A stretch of 36,170 nucleotides of DNA, from the IMG/VR virus record IMGVR_UViG_3300017528_000084, positions 1 to 36,170 of that record, one strand, 5' to 3'. The notes under the pieces are model-generated. The model ran no database searches. It saw nothing but the letters and a program-made list of their open reading frames with translations, and was not told the origin of the DNA. Of the stretch, positions 8,640-34,760 are shown one piece after another. The stretch is from a virus. How positions within the stretch are numbered: position 1 is the first letter of the stretch; each line of letters begins with the position of its first letter. Position numbers and translations under genes: made by a program.

Positions 8640-8794
8640 TGCGGATATTTCTCCTCCAACTTCTTATCAGCAATTTCATTCATGCGCAATGTCAATCTGA
8701 GCAATACGGTCTCAGGCTCAGTCTCCCGAACAAACCTCTGGAGCGCATCGAGCAGCTTACATTCAAGCGCCGTCAATGGCTGCTCTCGGGTCAA
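8636..8794 (-). CDS. 52-residue helical protein, TTG start
   Basis: Found by hand in the 150-base space between 8639 and 8791. The TTG at 8794 overlaps the stop of the upstream gene (TTGA) and the TGA overlaps the ATG of the downstream gene. The peptide MTREQPLTALECKLLDALQR... is a leucine/glutamate-rich amphipathic helix (LLRLTLRMNEIADKKLEEKY). Both-end overlaps and composition support it; function unknown. Confidence 0.6.
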   Translation of the reverse strand: MTREQPLTALECKLLDALQRFVRETEPETVLLRLTLRMNEIADKKLEEKYPQ

Positions 8795-9711
8795 TTCGTA
8801 AATATCCGTATTCCGCGAGGCTGCAAGGTCGTCGCATCGAACAGCCCAATTATGTTGACGACGCCCCGGCCAATGAAAAGCAGGCCCAAGACTTGCTGCG
8901 AATCCGTGTAGTTGATGCTCCCGTCCGGCGAAGTGACCGTTAGCGCAATGGGCACAAGTGGCGGAGAAATATCAATCCCTGACGAGCAGGACATTTGCGC
9001 ATTGGAGTTGAGGGTGCCTTTGCAGAGGTCGGATGTGCCGCTGGACAGAGAAACGATAGAGCCTGCCAAGAGTCCCAGCCCTGCTGCGCCTTGGTCGTCG
9101 GTGCCATCGCACTTCGTGCAGGTTGTTAGTTGCACTGGGAATCTGAATGTCACGATGTTTGGCGGTATTGCTGAGACGCTGGTCAGAGTGATGTTATCGA
9201 AGATGGTCTGATTGTTTCCGCTGGAGAGCGAAACGGTAAGATTGCCGCCCACAGGAATCGTTGGGCCAGTCGTGCAGGAAAGCGATTGCTGGACAAGCAC
9301 GCCACGCGCTGCGATAGGCGTTCCTCCGGCAGAGCAATTCGACATTGGGCCTGTGCCGATGAGCAGATTAGCTGAATAGACTGCCGGCAGAGGGAAGTTT
9401 GATTGGCTGCCTACATAGAATTTCAGCGTGTAAGTCGTACTGACAACCGGAAGGATGCCCAAATCCTGCGTTACTGACCCGCCTTGCAGCCAAAGCACTG
9501 TCTTGCCATCGGGAATTACGGCTATCTGTGAATTAGTGGGATTCTCCAGCCCTTGGTATTGCGCCTTGCAGGTCCAGCTAGGCGGACATTGGTAATCGTA
9601 GTTTCCTGTAGGAGCGTTAATCTCGAACGAGCCATTGACAATCGGCACGCTCGTCTGCGCCGCCGCAGGCAGCCATGAGAGAAGGACGAGGAGGAGGGCT
9701 GCGAGTTTCAT
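8791..9711 (-). CDS. secreted beta-rich protein with signal peptide (carbohydrate-binding-like)
   Basis: A 306-residue protein. Residues 1-18 are a clear Sec signal peptide (MKLAALLLVLLSWLPAAAQ; cleavage likely after AAA). The first mature domain (about 20-130) starts PIVNGSFEI and contains TTYTLKFYVGS, the pattern of galactose-binding-like jelly-roll domains (DUF642/PEP-CTERM-associated style). The second half is Cys-containing and beta-rich (QLTTCTKCDGTDDQ, LTVTSPDGSIN). ATG 9711 overlaps the upstream stop (ATGA). Secretion of a phage-encoded sugar-binding protein is unusual; it may be surface-displayed or help adsorption or exclusion. The domain assignment is by pattern only. Confidence 0.68.
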   Translation of the reverse strand: MKLAALLLVLLSWLPAAAQTSVPIVNGSFEINAPTGNYDYQCPPSWTCKAQYQGLENPTNSQIAVIPDGKTVLWLQGGSVTQDLGILPVVSTTYTLKFYVGSQSNFPLPAVYSANLLIGTGPMSNCSAGGTPIAARGVLVQQSLSCTTGPTIPVGGNLTVSLSSGNNQTIFDNITLTSVSAIPPNIVTFRFPVQLTTCTKCDGTDDQGAAGLGLLAGSIVSLSSGTSDLCKGTLNSNAQMSCSSGIDISPPLVPIALTVTSPDGSINYTDSQQVLGLLFIGRGVVNIIGLFDATTLQPRGIRIFTN

Positions 9712-10100
9712 TGGATTTGGCTCGGCGGAAGATTTGATACGGCAATCACGCAGACGTACCACCAATGACTGCCCGGTTTGGCCTTGATTGTGATGTGGGT
9801 ATACGATTCATCCGCCACTGTGATGATGGCTTTGTTTGCTCTTGTGCATCCCTTGTTGTCGCAGAACTGCGCTACGGCTTTGACGGTCTTCCCGTCATAT
9901 TTCGCGGGGTATAGCGATTGATAGTTGAGTGAGTATGTTCCAGATTTCGGAACAGTGAACTCCCCGCCATACTCCAGCCGCTGCCACTTGCAGGAGATTC
10001 CACTGGCTGTCTTTTTGCAATCAGCCCACTCTCTGCCATGAGGCATCGTCGGGCGGACAAATTGAGCGAACAGCACAACAAATATCAGCGCGGATTGCAT
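9708..10100 (-). CDS. small secreted or membrane-tethered beta-rich protein
   Basis: A 130-residue protein with an N-terminal hydrophobic segment (MQSALIFVVLFAQFV) that could be a signal peptide, although positive charge before it is absent. The rest is a beta-sandwich-like domain with four Cys (DCKKTASGISCKW, FCDNKGCTR) that could form disulfides in an oxidising compartment. The start overlaps the end of the spike gene by 16 bases. Disulfide-ready Cys pairs fit an exported protein. No family recognised. Confidence 0.6.
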   Translation of the reverse strand: MQSALIFVVLFAQFVRPTMPHGREWADCKKTASGISCKWQRLEYGGEFTVPKSGTYSLNYQSLYPAKYDGKTVKAVAQFCDNKGCTRANKAIITVADESYTHITIKAKPGSHWWYVCVIAVSNLPPSQIQ

Positions 10101-25316: not shown

Positions 25317-26354
25317 TTACTGAATCGCGGGGATGCTGTCCATCCAGCGAACGCGCTGAGTGTCGATGCCCGTCAAGGGCGGGCCTGTGATTGTCTGATG
25401 GAAGATGTATCCGGCCCATGCGCCAATCGTCCCGGTCGGGTCGAACGCGCTGCGAGCCGCATCTTTGGTGACGAAGCACTCGATATCGTGCCAGTCGCCG
25501 CCATCCATCTCCGTGTCGCCGGGAACAGGCAGCCAATAGCCTCGCGCGGCTTCCTGCCCTGCAACGTAAGTACGGAACGAAGAGCCAAGACCAGCCGATG
25601 AGAAATCGGCAATCTTGGTGACAAAGGGCGTCTGATAGAAGCAAACGCCAGTGGTTTGGAGACGCACTTCGGTAAGCTGGTCGCCTGCGGCAATCTTCTC
25701 GAAAGCGTCGGCGCGTTCCCTCGTGTACTTCGCCCAATCAATCAGCGAAGCGTTGAGGCCCGCACCATTCAAGAGATCGTTGACCACGTTCGGCGAAATG
25801 GCTCCGACGTATTCGCTATCCCGCTTCGGCATCACGCTGATGCTGACAAGCTCTTCCTTCATGCTGCGAATCGCGGGAAGAGTCATCAGAAATGGCGAGC
25901 TGATAAGCGAGGAAGCGTTTACGGCGGAATCCACGGCGGAAAGCCCGTCAAAGAACGTGCTATAAAGCAGGCTCAAGGACTGGCCCGCACGGTAAGACAT
26001 TTCCGTTGCCGAGTTGCCCACCTGGTCGTCAATCGCAGCCGCTACTGTGAATCGGCTGAAATTGGTGTAATCGGACCATTCTGAGAGCTGATAGCTCGAT
26101 TGGTTCTGGGGCACGAATATCGGCGAGCTGATTTGCCCGTCAGTCGTGCTGTTCACATTTCCTGGCAGAGTTGAATACTCGAATTGACGGCCATTGATGC
26201 CGACGCCCAAAGGCTGCGACATCTTTTCGACCATCTCAAAAAAAGCGTTGGTTTGGCCTTTCAGGTTCGGCACGAGCTTCGATACGAAGTAGATTGCCTG
26301 CGCTGTTAGGCTGTTTCCAACATTGCTGATAGATGGATTCGGTCCACCTGGCAT
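25317..26354 (-). CDS. major capsid protein
   Basis: A 345-residue protein starting MPGGPNPSISNVGNSLTAQA. The pattern of an N-terminal arm, a region YSTLPGNVNSTTDG with IDDQVGNSATEMSYRAGQ, a long helix (AIRSMKEELVSISVMPKRDS followed by EYVGAISPNVVNDLL) and a beta-rich C-terminus with DWHDIECFVTKDAARSAF fits HK97-fold capsid proteins of the N4-gp56-like type. About 345 residues is the usual size. Context is decisive: scaffold-like gene immediately upstream, portal and terminase before that. No proteolytic delta domain is evident. The family subtype is a weaker call than the function. Confidence 0.8.
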   Translation of the reverse strand: MPGGPNPSISNVGNSLTAQAIYFVSKLVPNLKGQTNAFFEMVEKMSQPLGVGINGRQFEYSTLPGNVNSTTDGQISSPIFVPQNQSSYQLSEWSDYTNFSRFTVAAAIDDQVGNSATEMSYRAGQSLSLLYSTFFDGLSAVDSAVNASSLISSPFLMTLPAIRSMKEELVSISVMPKRDSEYVGAISPNVVNDLLNGAGLNASLIDWAKYTRERADAFEKIAAGDQLTEVRLQTTGVCFYQTPFVTKIADFSSAGLGSSFRTYVAGQEAARGYWLPVPGDTEMDGGDWHDIECFVTKDAARSAFDPTGTIGAWAGYIFHQTITGPPLTGIDTQRVRWMDSIPAIQ

Positions 26355-27459: not shown

Positions 27460-29529
27460 TTAAACTCCTCCTCCGCCGCTAAAAGGCTGTGCCAGAGGGT
27501 CGGTCTGCATACCATGCTCGATAGCCGTCCGAATGACTTCTCCTCCGGCTTTCGAGAGTTCTTTCTCCTGCTCTTCCTTGACTGTTTGCTCGAATTTCTG
27601 CTGCTCAAGGCCGCTTGCTTGCTGGCCTTTCTGCGCTTGGATGGCGGAAGGCAGTTGCGCATCGGCTTTCTGGCGTTCTTCTGGCGTCATTTTGACCACG
27701 AAATCCTGAGAATATTTCCATCCGGCGAAGGCTGCGAAGTTCTTGAACGCGGCCACGGCGTCAAACTTGTATCCCGCCACATTGAGCATGGTTACGAACG
27801 TCGGATTGTTCATAAGCTGAATCAGGAATGGGAAGAATTGCGCCATTTCCTTCTTGGGACCAAGCTTCGCACCAGCCAGAACTTCATATTCCATCTTGGC
27901 TTTGCGGAACTGGATATGATCTATCTCGATTTGCTGCTGCATCTCCTCGGACAGGACCTTGCGCAGCACAGCGGCAGGAAGCCTGTCATTGTTCAGTTCA
28001 TCCATGATTCTGAGCCAAGGCACGAAGATATTGCGCACAAACCTGCCAATCGGCCCATCAAGACGGCCTGCTATGGCTGCTCCAACTTGCTGTGCTCCGC
28101 TTCCTGACCTAGTTCCAGTACTCTGCACGCCGGGGAGACTGCTGCCCATCGAAAAGAGCGCATTGGCTCCAGCGGATTCTTTTGCTTCGGCGGCTTGCTG
28201 CATCAGCCATTGCATAGCGGCAGCAGGTTGTTCCGGCATTTCTAGGAACTTAAAGGCTTTCGTTACATCGCCTTCCACGTCAATGATGCCGCCTTGCGTC
28301 CAGACTAAATCCTGACCGGGCGTGTTGAATCCCTGCGTCCTGATAGCTGTGGGATTGAGACCGTAGTCGAGGAGACTTAGGGACATATTTGTAATGCCCT
28401 GGGCCACAAGCTGATTCGGCCCTGCAAGGGTCCCTATTCCTTGCCCATCGAAGCAATCGGGAATCGGACGCCAACAAGCGGAGAGAAATGGAATCTTTTT
28501 GTAGGGGTTGGCTTCGTTCCTGATAATGATGTTGTCTTCAAGGTGCTGGAGCACCACGATAACGAAGTTTTTCGACCAGTACTCGATAATGCGCATCCCG
28601 TTTTGCAGCGGGTCGGCGGAATCCTTGTAATTTCTTGGCACGGCAGTTTGAATCCATCCCCTCATGGACTCGGGCAGCGTCATTGAGATGTTGTCGCCTT
28701 CGGGGGCTTGCCGTTCGCGCATGAACCAGGCTTTTAAGTCTTCTTTTGGCGGGATGTCGTAGCCTTCATATCCCCGGAGATTGTCGAGGTCTTCGTAAGT
28801 CGCGTAGTCCGTGTAAACTACGTCCTTAGCCTTTCGAATGTCCCCGACGCGACAACCCCGGTTGACGAGAACGTTACGGCGGTCGCAGTACTTAATCCAA
28901 GGCCGGGAAACCACGTGCTCGTCGTATTCGATTTCAAACTCATCGGATTCTGCAGTGTGAATGGTGCGTTTGACGCCTGCCGCGTCGGTCTGCGTATCCG
29001 GCTCCGCTTTTCTGATGTACTTTTTCGTGTATACGGTTTCTTCATGCCAGCCCCATTTCATCACCATCGTTCCGATTAAAGCGCCCTGCAAGATGGTCAG
29101 TTCAGTCTCTTCCTCGAAATGCATATCATCCAACTGATAAGCAAAGAGAGCGGTTTTCGCCTGAATCATCTCCTGCGAAGTACCGGGACGGGGCCTTAGA
29201 AGAAACGGAGGAGACTCATAGAACAATCCGCCCATGATCTTCGGTGTGTTTGTGTCGCAGAGATTCGAGACCAGATAATTTGGGACGTTGGCCGAGGCGT
29301 TTCCATTGCCGCCATCGAAACAACCCGAGGAGGTTGGAGACTGATAGATGATGTAGGAATTCGACCAGCCAGCGGGCCAGTTCTGCTGATTCATCCAAGA
29401 ATTTCCGTCAGAAACCGCTTGAAGGACTAATTTGCAGGCTGCTTCATCGTCATAGAGAACAGTTCCAGAAGGGTCGGTGCGTAGATTTTCTGGCAGGATT
29501 TCCGCTGCGGCCTGGGTGGGTTTAGGCAT
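27460..29529 (-). CDS. portal protein
   Basis: A 689-residue protein. The N-terminal and central parts (about 60-330) have portal-like alternation (VSNLCDTNTPKIMGGLFYES, LTILQGALIGTMVMKWGWHE, VSRPWIKYCDRRNVLVN), followed by IPFLSACWRPIPDCFDGQGI with LVAQGITNMSLSLLDYGLNP and GGIIDVEGDVTKAF, typical of podovirus head-to-tail connector/portal proteins. The C-terminal 60 residues are a Gln/Lys/Glu-rich helix (barrel-like). It forms the dodecameric ring through which DNA is packaged. The start overlaps the terminase stop by 8 bases, the standard TerL-portal order. Length is normal for this type. Confidence 0.85.
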   Translation of the reverse strand: MPKPTQAAAEILPENLRTDPSGTVLYDDEAACKLVLQAVSDGNSWMNQQNWPAGWSNSYIIYQSPTSSGCFDGGNGNASANVPNYLVSNLCDTNTPKIMGGLFYESPPFLLRPRPGTSQEMIQAKTALFAYQLDDMHFEEETELTILQGALIGTMVMKWGWHEETVYTKKYIRKAEPDTQTDAAGVKRTIHTAESDEFEIEYDEHVVSRPWIKYCDRRNVLVNRGCRVGDIRKAKDVVYTDYATYEDLDNLRGYEGYDIPPKEDLKAWFMRERQAPEGDNISMTLPESMRGWIQTAVPRNYKDSADPLQNGMRIIEYWSKNFVIVVLQHLEDNIIIRNEANPYKKIPFLSACWRPIPDCFDGQGIGTLAGPNQLVAQGITNMSLSLLDYGLNPTAIRTQGFNTPGQDLVWTQGGIIDVEGDVTKAFKFLEMPEQPAAAMQWLMQQAAEAKESAGANALFSMGSSLPGVQSTGTRSGSGAQQVGAAIAGRLDGPIGRFVRNIFVPWLRIMDELNNDRLPAAVLRKVLSEEMQQQIEIDHIQFRKAKMEYEVLAGAKLGPKKEMAQFFPFLIQLMNNPTFVTMLNVAGYKFDAVAAFKNFAAFAGWKYSQDFVVKMTPEERQKADAQLPSAIQAQKGQQASGLEQQKFEQTVKEEQEKELSKAGGEVIRTAIEHGMQTDPLAQPFSGGGGV

Positions 29530-31285
29530 TCATGCCGAGATTTCGGAAGTCGAACGGACTCTTCCGCACTGGACTTCTTGACTCCGCCTGCTTCGGTGGA
29601 GGATTCCTATTGAAGACTACCCGCATATAAGCTTCTTGCGCCGCTTGCTTTTCCGCTTCTTCCTGCTGCCTTCTCACCACTTCCGCGTCAACAGGGTTAG
29701 AAGGCTCTTTCGGCAAAAAGAACTGTAACATAGAAATGGCGTCGGGGATGTCGTCTTTCCTGCCTTTGTTTTTTCTTAGCCCGGTATAGCGGAGGAATTG
29801 CGCGAAGGTTTCATCAATCCAAGGACCCTGCACAAAGAATAGACGGCCTTCGGCGAGAAGCGTTTCAAGACCTTTAATGCGGTTGGTTTTGGCGTCGTAC
29901 TGATTATCAATAGGCAGCCACAGAATGGGCGTGGCAACTTGATGCCGCAAAGCCACTCTCACGATTTCCTGCTGTAAGAGTTCCGTGCCCATCGCTTTTT
30001 CAATCAGGATGCATTGTGGCTTGGTTCTGCGGGCAAGGTCCACGATATGAAAAGCCAGTTCGCTTGACCGCCAGCGGCCAAAGTCCACTTCTGGCACATA
30101 GATTTCAGCTTTAGGACGGTCCACTGCTCCGACAGCCCCTGCCGAATAATCCGCCCGTTCCGTCGCTGTCGGTGCCCAATCCCAAGCATTGTAGATCGTC
30201 AAATCCTTCGGCACTGCCGCCATCTGCACAAGATGCGCCCGCAAAACATCTTCCGAGAATTGCAAGGCGTCTATATCCGGCTGAGGCTCGTTAAGTTGCT
30301 GACACCTAAAATCTCTCTCATTGCTTGAGAGCTTCTTGCGCATCACTGCCCAAGAGAGCTTCTCGGGGAACAGCAAATCGACCATGTGCTTCTTGAGATC
30401 GCGCAAGGGAACAGTCTTGAATTCTTCCTTTACCGTCCATCCGGCGCGGCAGAAATACTTCAGTGGAGCATCTTCTTGCGGCACGGCGAGACGAGTGCCA
30501 TACCAGTCGTCAAGGGCATAGCGCGTTCCGATGTTTATTTTCCCGCCCCACTCATCGAGCAGATTCTCGGCATTGTCATACTTATTCTTGAGCTTGATGC
30601 GGGCTTCCGGTGTAGTGGAATTCCTATCCGAAACAACGTCGTCGCCAATCATCAAATCACAGTGCTGGCTGGCCAGAGTGGCAACGATGGCATTGGCCCA
30701 TAGGGAAGGCTCTTTTTGTTCGGTATGGATTCTCGCGGGGCATTCAAGAGGCAGCTCACTAGTTCCCTTTACTCCGGTCAGGATGTATTCGGGGAAGAGC
30801 TGCTGGAGCTTGGTGGCCGGAGCGCCTTCCGGCTGATAAAAATATCGTTTGATTTGCTGGAGAAACAGCACGGAATTGTCGTATTCGCCGGTGACGATGA
30901 ATATGCGGGCGTCGGGAGCATTCAGGAGAAACTGCGTAGAAAACCCTGAACTGATAGTCGATTTGAAGATGCCGCGCGGGTCGAGCAGCAGATATTCCGG
31001 CCATTCCTTGAACTGTTTAAGGATGGCGTCTTGCAACTCTTCAAGCGTGTAGCCTTCGTGATAGACGCCATCGAAATTAAGTTTGGGAAAGAAATCACAG
31101 ACTGGCCGGTGAACACGCTCGATAACGCGAGTCCAGCCGAGAATGGAAACGAGCAGAAAGAACAGGTCCTTGCGGCAACGATCCCGCAAGTTCAGCCATT
31201 GCTCAAAAGTGATGCCGCACGGAGAGTCTTTATAAATCCCTTGAAGATCTTCCGTCGAACGGCACTCCGATTTGTAAAACGCCAT
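29522..31285 (-). CDS. terminase large subunit
   Basis: A 587-residue packaging motor. The ATPase part has a Walker A-like loop DPRGIFKST (102-110), preceded by YLLL, and a Walker B DLMIGDD (210-216); the RNase H-like nuclease part has Asp369 (AWDWAPT), Glu429 (ILIEKAMG) and Asp511/512/515 (GRKDDIPDAISML). The Walker A lacks the usual Gly before Lys (Phe107 instead), a variant tolerated in some terminases. The C-terminus (530-587) is a Gln/Glu/Arg-rich tail. Upstream is a His-rich gene, downstream the portal gene. I do not see a classical small-terminase gene beside it; the two small genes at 35.0-35.5 kb are possible candidates. Confidence 0.88.
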   Translation of the reverse strand: MAFYKSECRSTEDLQGIYKDSPCGITFEQWLNLRDRCRKDLFFLLVSILGWTRVIERVHRPVCDFFPKLNFDGVYHEGYTLEELQDAILKQFKEWPEYLLLDPRGIFKSTISSGFSTQFLLNAPDARIFIVTGEYDNSVLFLQQIKRYFYQPEGAPATKLQQLFPEYILTGVKGTSELPLECPARIHTEQKEPSLWANAIVATLASQHCDLMIGDDVVSDRNSTTPEARIKLKNKYDNAENLLDEWGGKINIGTRYALDDWYGTRLAVPQEDAPLKYFCRAGWTVKEEFKTVPLRDLKKHMVDLLFPEKLSWAVMRKKLSSNERDFRCQQLNEPQPDIDALQFSEDVLRAHLVQMAAVPKDLTIYNAWDWAPTATERADYSAGAVGAVDRPKAEIYVPEVDFGRWRSSELAFHIVDLARRTKPQCILIEKAMGTELLQQEIVRVALRHQVATPILWLPIDNQYDAKTNRIKGLETLLAEGRLFFVQGPWIDETFAQFLRYTGLRKNKGRKDDIPDAISMLQFFLPKEPSNPVDAEVVRRQQEEAEKQAAQEAYMRVVFNRNPPPKQAESRSPVRKSPFDFRNLGMNA

Positions 31286-31287
31286 CC

Positions 31288-31614
31288 CTATTGAGCGGCC
31301 ATCGGCGATGGTGCAGGCGCGGCGGCAGGAGCCGCACTGTCTAGCTGGCCTTGCATATGCTCCATCATGTCCGCGTCGTTGGCGTGCGCGGCGCTGTGCT
31401 CCGTGCCGTCATGCATGGTGTGGCGCGTGGTGTGGCTGCCATCGCCGTGATGCTCAATATGCGTATGCTTTATGCCGTGTTTTGGACCTTTGGATTTTTT
31501 CTCTGGCAAGTGGTGTCCTTTCGTGGCTGCATCCCATTCGGCAAGCCCAGCTTTGCCGAGAATTTCGGGATGCGCGTGCATGTAGCCCTGCTGGGCCTTG
31601 CTCTTGAACGACAA
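31288..31614 (-). CDS. histidine-rich small phage protein
   Basis: A 108-residue protein that starts at TTG 31614 with GGAG 7 bases upstream. The N-terminus MSFKSKAQQGYMHAHPEILG matches a short conserved 'KSKAQQ' phage motif often found near head genes. Residues about 45-90 are extremely His-rich (THIEHHGDGSHTTRHTMHDG), and the tail is Ala/Pro-rich. The His cluster could bind divalent metals; no activity is established. It precedes the terminase gene by 2 bases. Confidence 0.68.
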   Translation of the reverse strand: MSFKSKAQQGYMHAHPEILGKAGLAEWDAATKGHHLPEKKSKGPKHGIKHTHIEHHGDGSHTTRHTMHDGTEHSAAHANDADMMEHMQGQLDSAAPAAAPAPSPMAAQ

Positions 31615-31615
31615 A

Positions 31616-32182
31616 CTAGAACTCCAGATTCCATTCGTACATCGCGGCGGTGTTCAGGGCATCCGACACACCGAAGTTCAGGCCAAAGACAAATTGCGGC
31701 AGAACGGGCGGGAAGTTGTTGCCATCGGAAAACACGCCGAGCCAGTTGATGCCGGTGATGCTGGTATTGGTGAAGGACGTGCTGGACACTCCATTCGCTA
31801 CCCAGGTCGTTGAGACCACCTGAACGATGCCGGAGCCGTTGTCGCCTTGCAGGTCAAATTTCACCATCCAGGGATAATTAGCTGCGGTCGAGCTGAAAAG
31901 TTGCGCCGAAGTCAATGCGCTGACCGTGGTGTTGCTGCCGGAAGTGAGAGAATTTCCGAATTGCAGAGTCGGAATGATGGTGGGGGAAGTGCCGTGCAGG
32001 AACATGGTTCCAGCAGCTTTGATGGTCATGATTTGCCCTTGCGCGGTCGAGGGAACCTGCAATCCTGCCGGGAGAGTTGCGGTCAGTAGCGAAGGGAAAA
32101 TCTTGACGCCGGAGCCGGTGCCGCCGACTTTCGATGGGAAAGCATAATTGATTCCACCAGATGTTACAGAAATATCAGCCAT
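31616..32182 (-). CDS. putative beta-rich structural (decoration or fibre) protein
   Basis: A 188-residue Ser/Thr/Gly/Asn-rich protein without Cys, with regular beta strands (MVKFDLQGDNGSGIVQVVS, VFSDGNNFPPVLPQFVFGL). An AGGAAA SD precedes ATG 32182. The composition matches phage surface or decoration proteins. It lies between the glycosyltransferase cassette and the terminase gene; an attractive but unproven idea is that it is a substrate of those enzymes. Not recognised as a named family. Confidence 0.6.
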   Translation of the reverse strand: MADISVTSGGINYAFPSKVGGTGSGVKIFPSLLTATLPAGLQVPSTAQGQIMTIKAAGTMFLHGTSPTIIPTLQFGNSLTSGSNTTVSALTSAQLFSSTAANYPWMVKFDLQGDNGSGIVQVVSTTWVANGVSSTSFTNTSITGINWLGVFSDGNNFPPVLPQFVFGLNFGVSDALNTAAMYEWNLEF

Positions 32183-32253: not shown

Positions 32254-32940
32254 CTACTTTCCGTATTTGGCAAGGAACTTCTCGCGCCAGTGAGCTTCCT
32301 CGACGTGCCACATGGAGTAGTTGCCGGGCTGACTGAGGCAGGTTTTGCATAGGCAAGTCATCAGTTCCAGAGATTCCGTGAGCGGGATTCCGGCCAGCGA
32401 AAGCACATAACCCGTTGCACGATCTTCGTAAGGCGTATCTGGCTGAGGGGAATTGAGGATGGCTTCCATTGCGTGGTGGGAGAGCCAATACGCTGGGCCG
32501 CAAGCATATCGGACGGTTAGTTCAGGCTCCTGGCCGAAGCGTTTGACCTGCCCTTCACGCATGTTGCCGCGATAATCCACTGGTAGGAAATTGGCGAGGG
32601 CCTTATCCACATCCACGTACACGTCGTCATCTATTTTGCAGAGGTAGTCGTATCCGGCGTCTCTGGCCCAGCGGATGACGGCGCGGACTTTGGGGACGAG
32701 GCTGTAGTAGTCGTCTCCGCAATCAGGAAGGAAGATTTCATCGGCCAGCGGTTCGCGGCCACCAGTTCCGCCGTAAAAGAATCGTACATTCCCTTTGGCA
32801 GCAGATACCCAGGTTTTTCGCATCCATTTGACATTGTGGTTTTCTCCTGATTGGTGCGTGTTGTGAGTGGCTTCGCTTGCATACGTGCGATGGTGACAGG
32901 TGACGATGGCAAAGAGGATTTTAGGGATGTTCTCGGGCAT
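32254..32940 (-). CDS. GT31-like glycosyltransferase (galactosyltransferase type)
   Basis: A 228-residue protein starting MPENIPKILFAIVTCHHRTY. It has the GT31 pattern: KWMRKTWVSAAKGNVRFFYG (donor-binding strand), the metal-binding DDD at residues 104-106 in CKIDDDVYVD, CGPAYWLSHHAMEAI and a final acidic EDR in TPYEDRATGY. GT31 enzymes transfer Gal, GlcNAc or similar sugars from UDP-sugars. ATG 32940 has GAAGG upstream; it overlaps the previous gene by 20 bases. The Cys cluster MTCLCKTC (about 195-202) is an unusual C-terminal addition. Sister of the next upstream gene; the pair is likely a duplication. Donor and acceptor are unknown. Confidence 0.8.
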   Translation of the reverse strand: MPENIPKILFAIVTCHHRTYASEATHNTHQSGENHNVKWMRKTWVSAAKGNVRFFYGGTGGREPLADEIFLPDCGDDYYSLVPKVRAVIRWARDAGYDYLCKIDDDVYVDVDKALANFLPVDYRGNMREGQVKRFGQEPELTVRYACGPAYWLSHHAMEAILNSPQPDTPYEDRATGYVLSLAGIPLTESLELMTCLCKTCLSQPGNYSMWHVEEAHWREKFLAKYGK

Positions 32941-33628
32941 AGAGCCTTCGCATGTCCTCGATCTTGACGGCATGGGCGGTTACGGCAGAGTCGTTCACTC
33001 GGGAAATATCTATCCAGTGGTTTTCGAAGCCGCACCAATGGCCAGTTAGATAGGCTCCTTGAATGTGATGCTGCTTCATGGCTTCGCCGACGATAACATC
33101 CTCGGCCCAAGTGTGGGGAATGAGTTCAGAAACAATCTGCATGGCGCGTTTTGAAAGCCAGTAGCCGGGACCTCCCGAAGCATACGTTTTCGCTCCGCCC
33201 ATGTAGCCGCCATAATCGAATTTCTGGGATTCCAGCTCGGCAAGCAGTCTTTTCGGCCAGATATAAGTATCATCGTCTGCTTTCAGCATCCAGTCATAGC
33301 CCTGCCAGAGCGCCCATTTGGTAATGGCTATGACTTTGTGGGGCAGGTGAGCATAATCATCCTCGCAGTCGAGCCAGACTTCATCCCATCGCGGAATTTC
33401 GCCCGGAGTCCCGCCATAGAAGAAACGCAAATCCAGCAAGGGGAGAACATCTTTCGCCCAGGTCTCGCGGATAGCTTCGATGCGCTCATTCGGCCCGCTG
33501 ATATGAATGTTTGTGCCGTAGCCTTGATTCAGATAGGCGTGTTTGGGGTCGAAATGCGGGGATTCCGTGGACTCCCACAAACCGTAAGAAAGTTGGCGGC
33601 AAGCTGGGATGGCGATAAGTATTTTCAT
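32921..33628 (-). CDS. GT31-like glycosyltransferase (second paralogue)
   Basis: A 235-residue protein paralogous to the gene at 32254-32940: AIRETWAKDVLPLLDLRFFY (52-71), then GGTPG, metal-binding DDD 118-120 in LKADDDTYIW, GGPGYWLSKRAMQIV (152-166) and a catalytic-type EDV at 176-178 (TWAEDVIVGEAM). The motifs are cleaner than in the sister gene. No membrane segment, so it is probably cytoplasmic. ATG 33628 overlaps the methyltransferase stop (ATGA). Could glycosylate a phage virion protein, host glycan or DNA base; sequence alone cannot tell. Confidence 0.82.
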   Translation of the reverse strand: MKILIAIPACRQLSYGLWESTESPHFDPKHAYLNQGYGTNIHISGPNERIEAIRETWAKDVLPLLDLRFFYGGTPGEIPRWDEVWLDCEDDYAHLPHKVIAITKWALWQGYDWMLKADDDTYIWPKRLLAELESQKFDYGGYMGGAKTYASGGPGYWLSKRAMQIVSELIPHTWAEDVIVGEAMKQHHIQGAYLTGHWCGFENHWIDISRVNDSAVTAHAVKIEDMRRLYAREHP

Positions 33629-34119
33629 AGCAGGATAAGAGCGTCCTCGCGCTGGAAACGGAAGCTGATAAAAACATGCGGGCCGAGAGCCGAATAATCC
33701 CCTACAGGAGAAGCATCTTCGATGATATAGACGCCACCGGGCGAGAGCAGCGAGTGGAACTCCTTGTAGGTGCGAATCTGTTCTAACGGGTCGTGGTTGG
33801 CGTCGTCTAGAATCACATCGTAGGGACCTAACGGGAAGTCGCGCGAGCGCAGATAAGACTGGATGCGCGAGCCTTCGACCAGCACGGAAGCGTCTATATC
33901 GAGGCCGACGATCATGGCGTTAGGAAAGTAATCCTGCCACATCCTGAGACTTGCGCCGGGTTGGTAATCGGGGACATGGGCCATTGCTTCAGGCGAGCCT
34001 ATGCCGATTTCGAGGACTGATTTAATTGTTTCGCGCTGGCCGGAAAACAGCCGCTCGTAGAACTCCGTATAGGGACCAGCCTTATCAGTACCATACTTTC
34101 TGGCCAGGTCCGTGAGCAT
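33625..34119 (-). CDS. SAM-dependent methyltransferase (sugar O-methyltransferase-like)
   Basis: A 164-residue class I methyltransferase: LARKYGTDKAGPYTEFYERL N-terminus, motif I VLEIGIG (35-41), the SLRMWQDYFPNAMIVGLDID stretch (57-76) with acidic GLDID, DVILDDANHD (101-110) and GGVYIIED (128-135). This N-terminal 'KYGTDK...Y..' and 'SL.MW..YFP.A' wording is that of the macrocin/TylF-like O-methyltransferase group, which methylates sugars. It is shorter than typical members (about 220-250), so the C-terminal cap is reduced. ATG 34119 overlaps the upstream stop (TAATG). Lying between glycosyltransferases, it most likely methylates the sugar they add. Confidence 0.8.
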   Translation of the reverse strand: MLTDLARKYGTDKAGPYTEFYERLFSGQRETIKSVLEIGIGSPEAMAHVPDYQPGASLRMWQDYFPNAMIVGLDIDASVLVEGSRIQSYLRSRDFPLGPYDVILDDANHDPLEQIRTYKEFHSLLSPGGVYIIEDASPVGDYSALGPHVFISFRFQREDALILL

Positions 34120-34760
34120 TAGAATTCTTCTTTCGTCTTGCTGCGTCCATGGCCCAGATGCTCGATGATGGGGCGGCCAAGATCGGCGATGCGGTAACCC
34201 GCCTTCAAGTAAAGCCTGGAGAGAGCAAGCTCCGACTGGCAAGCCCACATATTGAGACCGCCTTGGGCATAAGGCCCCATTTTGAGATAGTCCGATTTTC
34301 GCCGGAGGCCCGGGTTAAAGCTCATACCACCCCAACCATCCTGCCAGTTAGGTTCCGCTATAAGAAAGGGATAGCTGCTTTCCTGCAGGGGATGATTCCA
34401 GGCCCGGCCCCGCAAGCTCACGCTGAAAATCTCAGGATACTGACACAAAATGTCATAGCTTGGCTGGATGAAGTCGCCCTCTTTGAATTGCCAATCGTCC
34501 TCGCACCAAAACACAAGCTCTGTGTCAATCATGCCCATCAGCCGGTCGCAGGAGCGAATCTGCCCGAGGCGAGGGTCGTTCCAGTACCACTTCCAAGCTT
34601 CTCCGCTGCCTCGTTTCAGCATATCGGGAAGCGGCCCATCTTCCAGAATCAGAACCTCCCGCGGAGCCACATCCACATGCTGAAAGAAGCTATCCAGGGT
34701 CTGCTTCAGCAGGTCGTGCCGGTCGCAGCTCGTCACCGCCAAGGTATATTCTAGGCTCAC
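34119..34760 (-). CDS. GT-A fold glycosyltransferase (GT2-like)
   Basis: A 213-residue protein with N-terminal EYTLAVTSCDRHDLLKQTLD (nucleotide-sugar binding), VLILEDG (36-42) and the metal-binding-type CEDDW (86-90) followed by QFKEGDFIQPS, the layout of GT2-type inverting transferases. A C-terminal part (GWGGMSFNPGLRRKSDYLKM) is acceptor-side. The start is GTG 34760 in a GTGA overlap. First enzyme of the cassette in transcription order. Soluble by inspection. Confidence 0.78.
   Translation of the reverse strand: MSLEYTLAVTSCDRHDLLKQTLDSFFQHVDVAPREVLILEDGPLPDMLKRGSGEAWKWYWNDPRLGQIRSCDRLMGMIDTELVFWCEDDWQFKEGDFIQPSYDILCQYPEIFSVSLRGRAWNHPLQESSYPFLIAEPNWQDGWGGMSFNPGLRRKSDYLKMGPYAQGGLNMWACQSELALSRLYLKAGYRIADLGRPIIEHLGHGRSKTKEEF

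Follow-up and report, generated by a model that had tools for sequence, protein, structure and literature searches.

The window, meaning the whole stretch of DNA analysed here, is an entire IMG/VR record of 36,170 bases, which may itself be a fragment. Gene calls on its DNA place four open reading frames on the minus strand, all pointing to the terminase, with the following features at the locus:

34119..34760, minus strand: GT-A-fold glycosyltransferase, GT2-like, 213 aa, GTG start (predicted model compared with GT-A enzymes; DG and DD motifs aligned with phage GT2 domains)
33625..34119, minus strand: class I SAM-dependent sugar O-methyltransferase, MycE/TylE-like, 164 aa (phmmer to PDB; PHROG 21658)
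32921..33628, minus strand: GT31-like glycosyltransferase a (GT31a), 235 aa (PF01762 at 1e-9, above cut-off; motifs)
32254..32940, minus strand: GT31-like glycosyltransferase b (GT31b), 228 aa (PF01762 at 4.9e-7, above cut-off; paralogue of GT31a)
31616..32182, minus strand: Ser/Thr-rich all-beta sandwich with its own ribosome-binding site, candidate virion protein and acceptor (AF2 model; lineage homologues)
31288..31614, minus strand: small His-rich protein, encoded where the small terminase gene usually lies (homologue in L005)
29522..31285, minus strand: large terminase subunit (phrog_38, 2e-55)
27460..29529, minus strand: portal protein, SU10 type (PF23899, 1.4e-14)
25317..26354, minus strand: probable major capsid protein (phrog_1357, 6e-4; homologue of the Tunturi_3 major head protein, 2e-44)

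The first-pass annotation had described the first four of these genes as overlapping and free of membrane segments, and both descriptions hold. The start/stop overlaps are 1, 4 and 20 nt, and the highest 19-residue Kyte-Doolittle mean across all four proteins is 1.35. In the window DNA, the methyltransferase starts at the ATG at 34119 (TAATG), which accounts for the 1-nt overlap with the first glycosyltransferase gene; a start at GTG 34248 was rejected. GT31a starts at the ATG at 33628 (ATGA) and overlaps the methyltransferase gene by 4 nt, and GT31b most likely starts at the ATG at 32940, 20 nt inside GT31a. The gap of 71 nt between GT31b and the 31616 gene carries an AGGA site. The placement of the cassette at the head of the late operon is a fair description insofar as the genes upstream of the 31616 homologue in the sister phage L030 lie mostly on the other strand, but in the window three to four small genes on the same strand precede the cassette.

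GT31a and GT31b match PF01762 (Galactosyl_T) with 38.9 and 30.2 bits against a curated cut-off of 23, and their alignment has 41% identity, so the proposal of two paralogous GT31-like transferases is borne out. The DxD, GGxGY and ED motifs of the family recur in most of 18 aligned sequences. Within this alignment GT31a shows DDD, GGxGYWLS and ED, and across the pair the DxD motif reads KADDDTY and KIDDDVY and the ED motif AEDV and YEDR. Weak PDB matches were obtained to C1GalT1, B3GALT6 and Fringe. With these Galactosyl_T and Fringe enzymes the proteins share the Pfam family and the three motifs; however, the window proteins are short, soluble, without a membrane anchor and phage-encoded.

The GT31 family is known mainly from animal enzymes. 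The expectation that it is uncommon in phages was confirmed by a tblastn search with four queries, which returned no match at E<=0.01 in 50,697 phage records, and a literature search on GT31 in phages found nothing relevant. A scan of IMG/VR with GT31a as a single protein was also empty; a two-sequence GT31 profile matched 22 IMG/VR contigs. Among 84,980 genomes no cellular GT31 relative was confirmed by a scan with one short pattern, which is not proof of absence. Galactosyl transferases (gp300 and gp301) have been reported for the phage Tunturi_5 (PMC11924767). Natural fusions of GT31 with another glycosyltransferase domain were observed in four records (L011:4971-6503, L014:1135-2742, L016:9968-11428 and L111:7323-8900); the partner in L011 is GT2 by Pfam, and the other three fusions were recognised by eye or alignment.

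For the first glycosyltransferase, no family match was found in Pfam, PHROG or NCBIfam. Its AF2 model has a pLDDT of 61, with residues 1-110 mostly at 69-88 and residues 124-168 and 181-213 unreliable. The best structure matches of this moderate-confidence model are GT-A enzymes (B4GALNT1, Z 13.6 over 164 residues; SpsA, Z 11.9), which, together with an Asp-rich metal motif, points to a GT-A fold. In sequence, its DG and DD motifs can be lined up with phage GT2 domains, and hhalign against such domains gave an E-value of 0.0067 but a probability of 6%. The protein appears to lack a close relative in IMG/VR because a single-protein scan there was empty.

The methyltransferase had been labelled TylF-like, and this part of the first-pass annotation was not supported. 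The nearest solved structures found by phmmer are MycE (PDB 3ssm, 4.7e-13) and TylE (8ia9, 9e-11), the DD..H and ED motifs align with both across the methyltransferase domain, and the protein matches a methyltransferase family in PHROG. It differs from MycE and TylE in lacking their N-terminal domain (164 versus about 400 aa). Both of those enzymes methylate macrolide sugars. Homologues occur in the mycobacterial prophage prophiFVLQ01-1 (8.5e-19) and in a glycosyltransferase/methyltransferase cluster of Synechococcus phage S-SCSM1.

In 15 of 20 GT31 clusters the genes lie within, or no more than about 10 kb from, virion genes for head, packaging or tail; this is a descriptive count in which near-identical contigs were taken once and L016 is unconfirmed. 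In unrelated phages the GT31 genes are located between head protease and major capsid protein in L019 and L023, after a head-tail adaptor in L010, after a capsid protein gene in the 455-kb record L013, behind a tail-tip gene in L012, next to tail sheath and tube genes in L026, and upstream of the terminase in L024, L011 and L014. The neighbours in L016 look similar by eye but gave no virion-family match. Some proximity of this kind is to be expected since much of every phage genome is taken up by structural genes.

The linkage is not universal, and the notion that GT31 genes always accompany virion genes was rejected. The remaining five clusters belong to large genomes of the window's lineage and lie about 30-60 kb from the terminase, three of them with sugar-biosynthesis genes, so that position gives no clue to the acceptor in these genomes. 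Within this lineage, L115 (3209-16332; the contig of L056), L111, L112, L113 and L116 have large sugar clusters that contain no membrane genes. In L115, Pfam recognises a SIS isomerase, a GHMP kinase, two transketolase halves, a GDP-mannose dehydratase, a dTDP-sugar epimerase and a GT11 beside two GT31 genes, which looks like a phage-encoded heptose or deoxy-sugar pathway.

Such clusters bear on the proposal that the enzymes modify the host surface (LPS, capsule or another glycan) and thereby keep superinfecting phages from adsorbing. The combination of GT11, GDP-mannose dehydratase, dTDP-sugar epimerase, SIS isomerase and GHMP kinase in the large relatives resembles O-antigen sets, and the S-SCSM1 cluster with its homologue of the window methyltransferase can be read in the same way. 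However, by hydropathy neither the cassette nor the large sugar clusters encode a membrane protein such as a flippase, polymerase or GtrC-like protein, and the combination of a membrane GtrA flippase with GtrB/GtrC that is typical of serotype conversion was not found, as the cassette proteins contain no hydrophobic segment. Exclusion genes are usually expressed early or from prophages; the window cassette lies on the virion-gene strand and adjoins the terminase, and in unrelated phages GT31 genes sit inside runs of capsid genes. A host surface glycan is disfavoured as acceptor because the cassette comes without a flippase or other membrane gene. Modification of the host envelope is therefore considered unlikely, although it keeps some weight because of the large sugar clusters in the relatives.

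The closest known parallel is found in mycobacteriophages. Cluster O phages carry an O-methyltransferase and three glycosyltransferase genes between portal and protease, and Che8 has a glycosyltransferase-methyltransferase fusion and two glycosyltransferases at the right end of its genome. In prophiFVLQ01-1, the methyltransferase homologue lies between a glycosyltransferase and a homologue of Che8 gp110 (about 1e-56), with the pair 1-2 kb before the terminase, followed by HNH and the small and large terminase genes. According to passages in two papers that cite Freeman et al. 2023, these mycobacteriophage enzymes modify capsid and tail tube (PMC11600133, PMC12363180). Like cluster O/Corndog gp35-38 and Che8 gp108-110, the cassette unites several soluble glycosyltransferases and an O-methyltransferase of the sugar type in a single operon close to genes for terminase, portal or protease. 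It differs in two respects: the last glycosyltransferase of Che8 and cluster O/Corndog is GT25-like whereas the window has two GT31 proteins, and the methyltransferase of Che8 and cluster O is of the TylF type whereas that of the window is of the MycE type. The window glycosyltransferases gave no significant match to those of Che8 and Firecracker, and the cassette has no homologue of the GT25-type gp110/gp38; in this comparison a homologue, that of prophiFVLQ01-1, was found for the methyltransferase alone. Judged from these comparisons, the cassette is not a member of the mycobacteriophage type by descent of its glycosyltransferases, but by analogy it most likely works like the mycobacteriophage virion-glycosylation cassettes. 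Another parallel is the chlorovirus PBCV-1, whose A064R and A061L supply a GT-A transferase, a second glycosyltransferase and methyltransferases; these complete the O-methylated glycan carried by the major capsid protein (PMC9614988). It differs from the window phage in being a eukaryotic virus with fused domains, an N-glycan and other glycosyltransferase families.

From the gene calls, the enzyme families, the start and stop overlaps and the repeated association of GT31 genes with those of the virion, we infer a pathway in which the sugars, the order of steps, the acceptor and the benefit would be as follows. The four genes would form a soluble, translationally coupled glycosylation cassette. 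The GT-A enzyme and the two GT31 transferases may assemble a short oligosaccharide in the cytoplasm of the host, drawing on nucleotide sugars that are probably the host's own, and the MycE-like methyltransferase would O-methylate one sugar, probably as a cap. This fits the dedicated, methylated oligosaccharide proposed from the first reading, as far as the enzyme families go. The acceptor would most likely be a virion protein of the phage, with the 31616 protein as the first candidate and the capsid protein as the second. Covered with this glycan, the particle would differ in stability, adsorption or recognition. Three acceptors had been offered, and of these the virion protein fits best because of the 15 of 20 clusters near virion genes and the mycobacteriophage analogues, while a host surface glycan and DNA are disfavoured. 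Overall, glycosylation of a virion protein by the cassette is considered probable, with some room left for other acceptors because the GT31 clusters of five relatives are larger and lie a long way from their virion genes.

DNA as acceptor would imply that modified bases in the phage DNA receive sugars as a protection against restriction. Weak matches to TAGT (TET-associated glycosyltransferase) of two GT2-type neighbours in relatives point in this direction, one just above the cut-off (L006, 6.7e-7) and one below it (prophi48, 0.0011). However, the glycosyltransferases of the window are two GT31 proteins and a GT-A protein without a match to a DNA glycosyltransferase family, and no thymidylate-synthase-type (ThyA-type) enzyme was found in 13 GT31 records, several of which may be fragments. 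It is for the latter reason that DNA is disfavoured. A Tet/JBP match was also absent from these records, with the same caveat about fragments and with a positive control that was silent as well. Hypermodification of DNA is thus regarded as very unlikely.

The enzymes might instead act on some other soluble substrate, for example a host protein or small molecule, as is suggested by the fact that the closest solved methyltransferases are antibiotic-sugar enzymes. Nevertheless, no genes for aglycone biosynthesis were recognised in the window, and the position of GT31 beside virion genes in phages unrelated to one another also speaks against it, which makes this explanation improbable.

If a virion protein is the acceptor, the 31616 protein is the nearest candidate. 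Its AlphaFold model, built from 25 relatives, has a pLDDT of 88.6 and shows an all-beta sandwich that matches TNF-like lectins, a cyanophage short tail fibre domain and parts of tail spikes. With a best Z of 8.4, the structure search supported no specific function beyond a common TNF-like or lectin-like sandwich. The Ser and Thr content is 23%, compared with a mean of 14% and a 95th percentile of 24% in other upstream ORFs. The predicted fold fits an exposed virion protein, without being proof. The family comprises 46 homologous ORFs in the lineage, nearly all upstream of the terminase. The supposed link between this gene and the cassette was only partly upheld: L005 retains it, but about 40 relatives, the sister phage L029/L030 among them, conserve the family without upstream GT31. 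The idea that 31616 marks GT31 phages was accordingly rejected, and the conservation in these relatives weakens 31616 as acceptor.

In other cassette-bearing genomes a different Ser/Thr-rich protein takes the position behind the cassette. The gene following the cassette is 31616 in the window, and in L005 a 73-aa ORF intervenes. Behind their last cassette gene, L006, L015, L017/L104 and L103 encode a small Ser/Thr-rich protein of a distinct family, and in L114 GT31 overlaps the gene for another Ser-rich protein. The small protein of the L006 type is not detectably homologous to 31616 (hhalign E 0.49, despite a similar QYQL stretch). The L006-type family was not found in the GT31-negative loci searched, and the co-occurrence in these sequences is suggestive. 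However, the genomes of this group are not independent evidence because they form one clade, which also holds L105 with an upstream flank too short to tell. It is possible, though doubtful, that GT31 cassettes in uncultured phages are repeatedly paired with a dedicated downstream Ser/Thr-rich substrate, that the two are swapped together as a single module where the late operon begins, and that they produce a mucin-like O-methylated coat on the particle.

The distribution of the cassette was followed in a lineage set of 80 loci brought together by a portal profile. On the TerL tree, GT31 cassettes occur upstream of the terminase in three separate branches (the window and L005; the group of L006, L015, L103 and L104; and L041, the contig of L114), and at least four label changes are forced for cassette presence. 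The cassette appears to be optional because the sister phage L029/L030 has 31616 without it. Its absence from the sister and its patchy occurrence on the tree would also be expected of inactive or transient gene cargo without a selected function at this site. Against this stand the four intact frames with conserved catalytic motifs and tight overlaps, and the closest relative L005 (TerL 84% identical), which retains the order GT31b, 73-aa ORF, 31616 homologue, His-rich gene, terminase and portal. Mere cargo is therefore considered highly improbable, the least probable of the explanations weighed here.

Judged by the terminase, the nearest relative in culture is Tunturi_3, which infects the acidobacterium Tunturiibacter; the region upstream of its terminase showed no cassette. 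An acidobacterial host for the window phage is only a guess since the terminases are only 25% identical. Direct DNA similarity between the window and phage records was not found.

Glycosylation of particle proteins has been reported for a few mycobacteriophages. A second, unrelated enzyme set, based on GT31, recurs beside virion genes in about nine phage groups seen only in metagenomes. If virion-protein glycosylation by the cassette is true, particle glycosylation would be a wider phage trait with a sequence handle to find more cases. Small soluble GT31 enzymes would be a further gain, and the question of the acceptor becomes open to experiment, with the cultured Tunturi_3 as a baseline.

Several further features were observed in the window and its lineage. 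For the His-rich protein no convincing family match was found in Pfam or PHROG; similar His-rich tails before TerL were seen by eye in L006, L015, L103 and L104. The window also encodes a protein with an HpiC1-like domain (8791-9765; PF22825, 6e-14), located where the run of minus-strand genes draws to its end, and a short protein with a DUF6527 match (2327-2719; PF20137, 8.7e-6). One branch of the lineage repeatedly shows a dual-specificity-phosphatase-like gene on the upstream side of the terminase (L006:14971-15468, L015:14478-14993, L103:6370-6888, L104:5727-6242 and Tunturi_3 gp146); it is annotated as such in Tunturi_3 and was recognised by eye in the other four.
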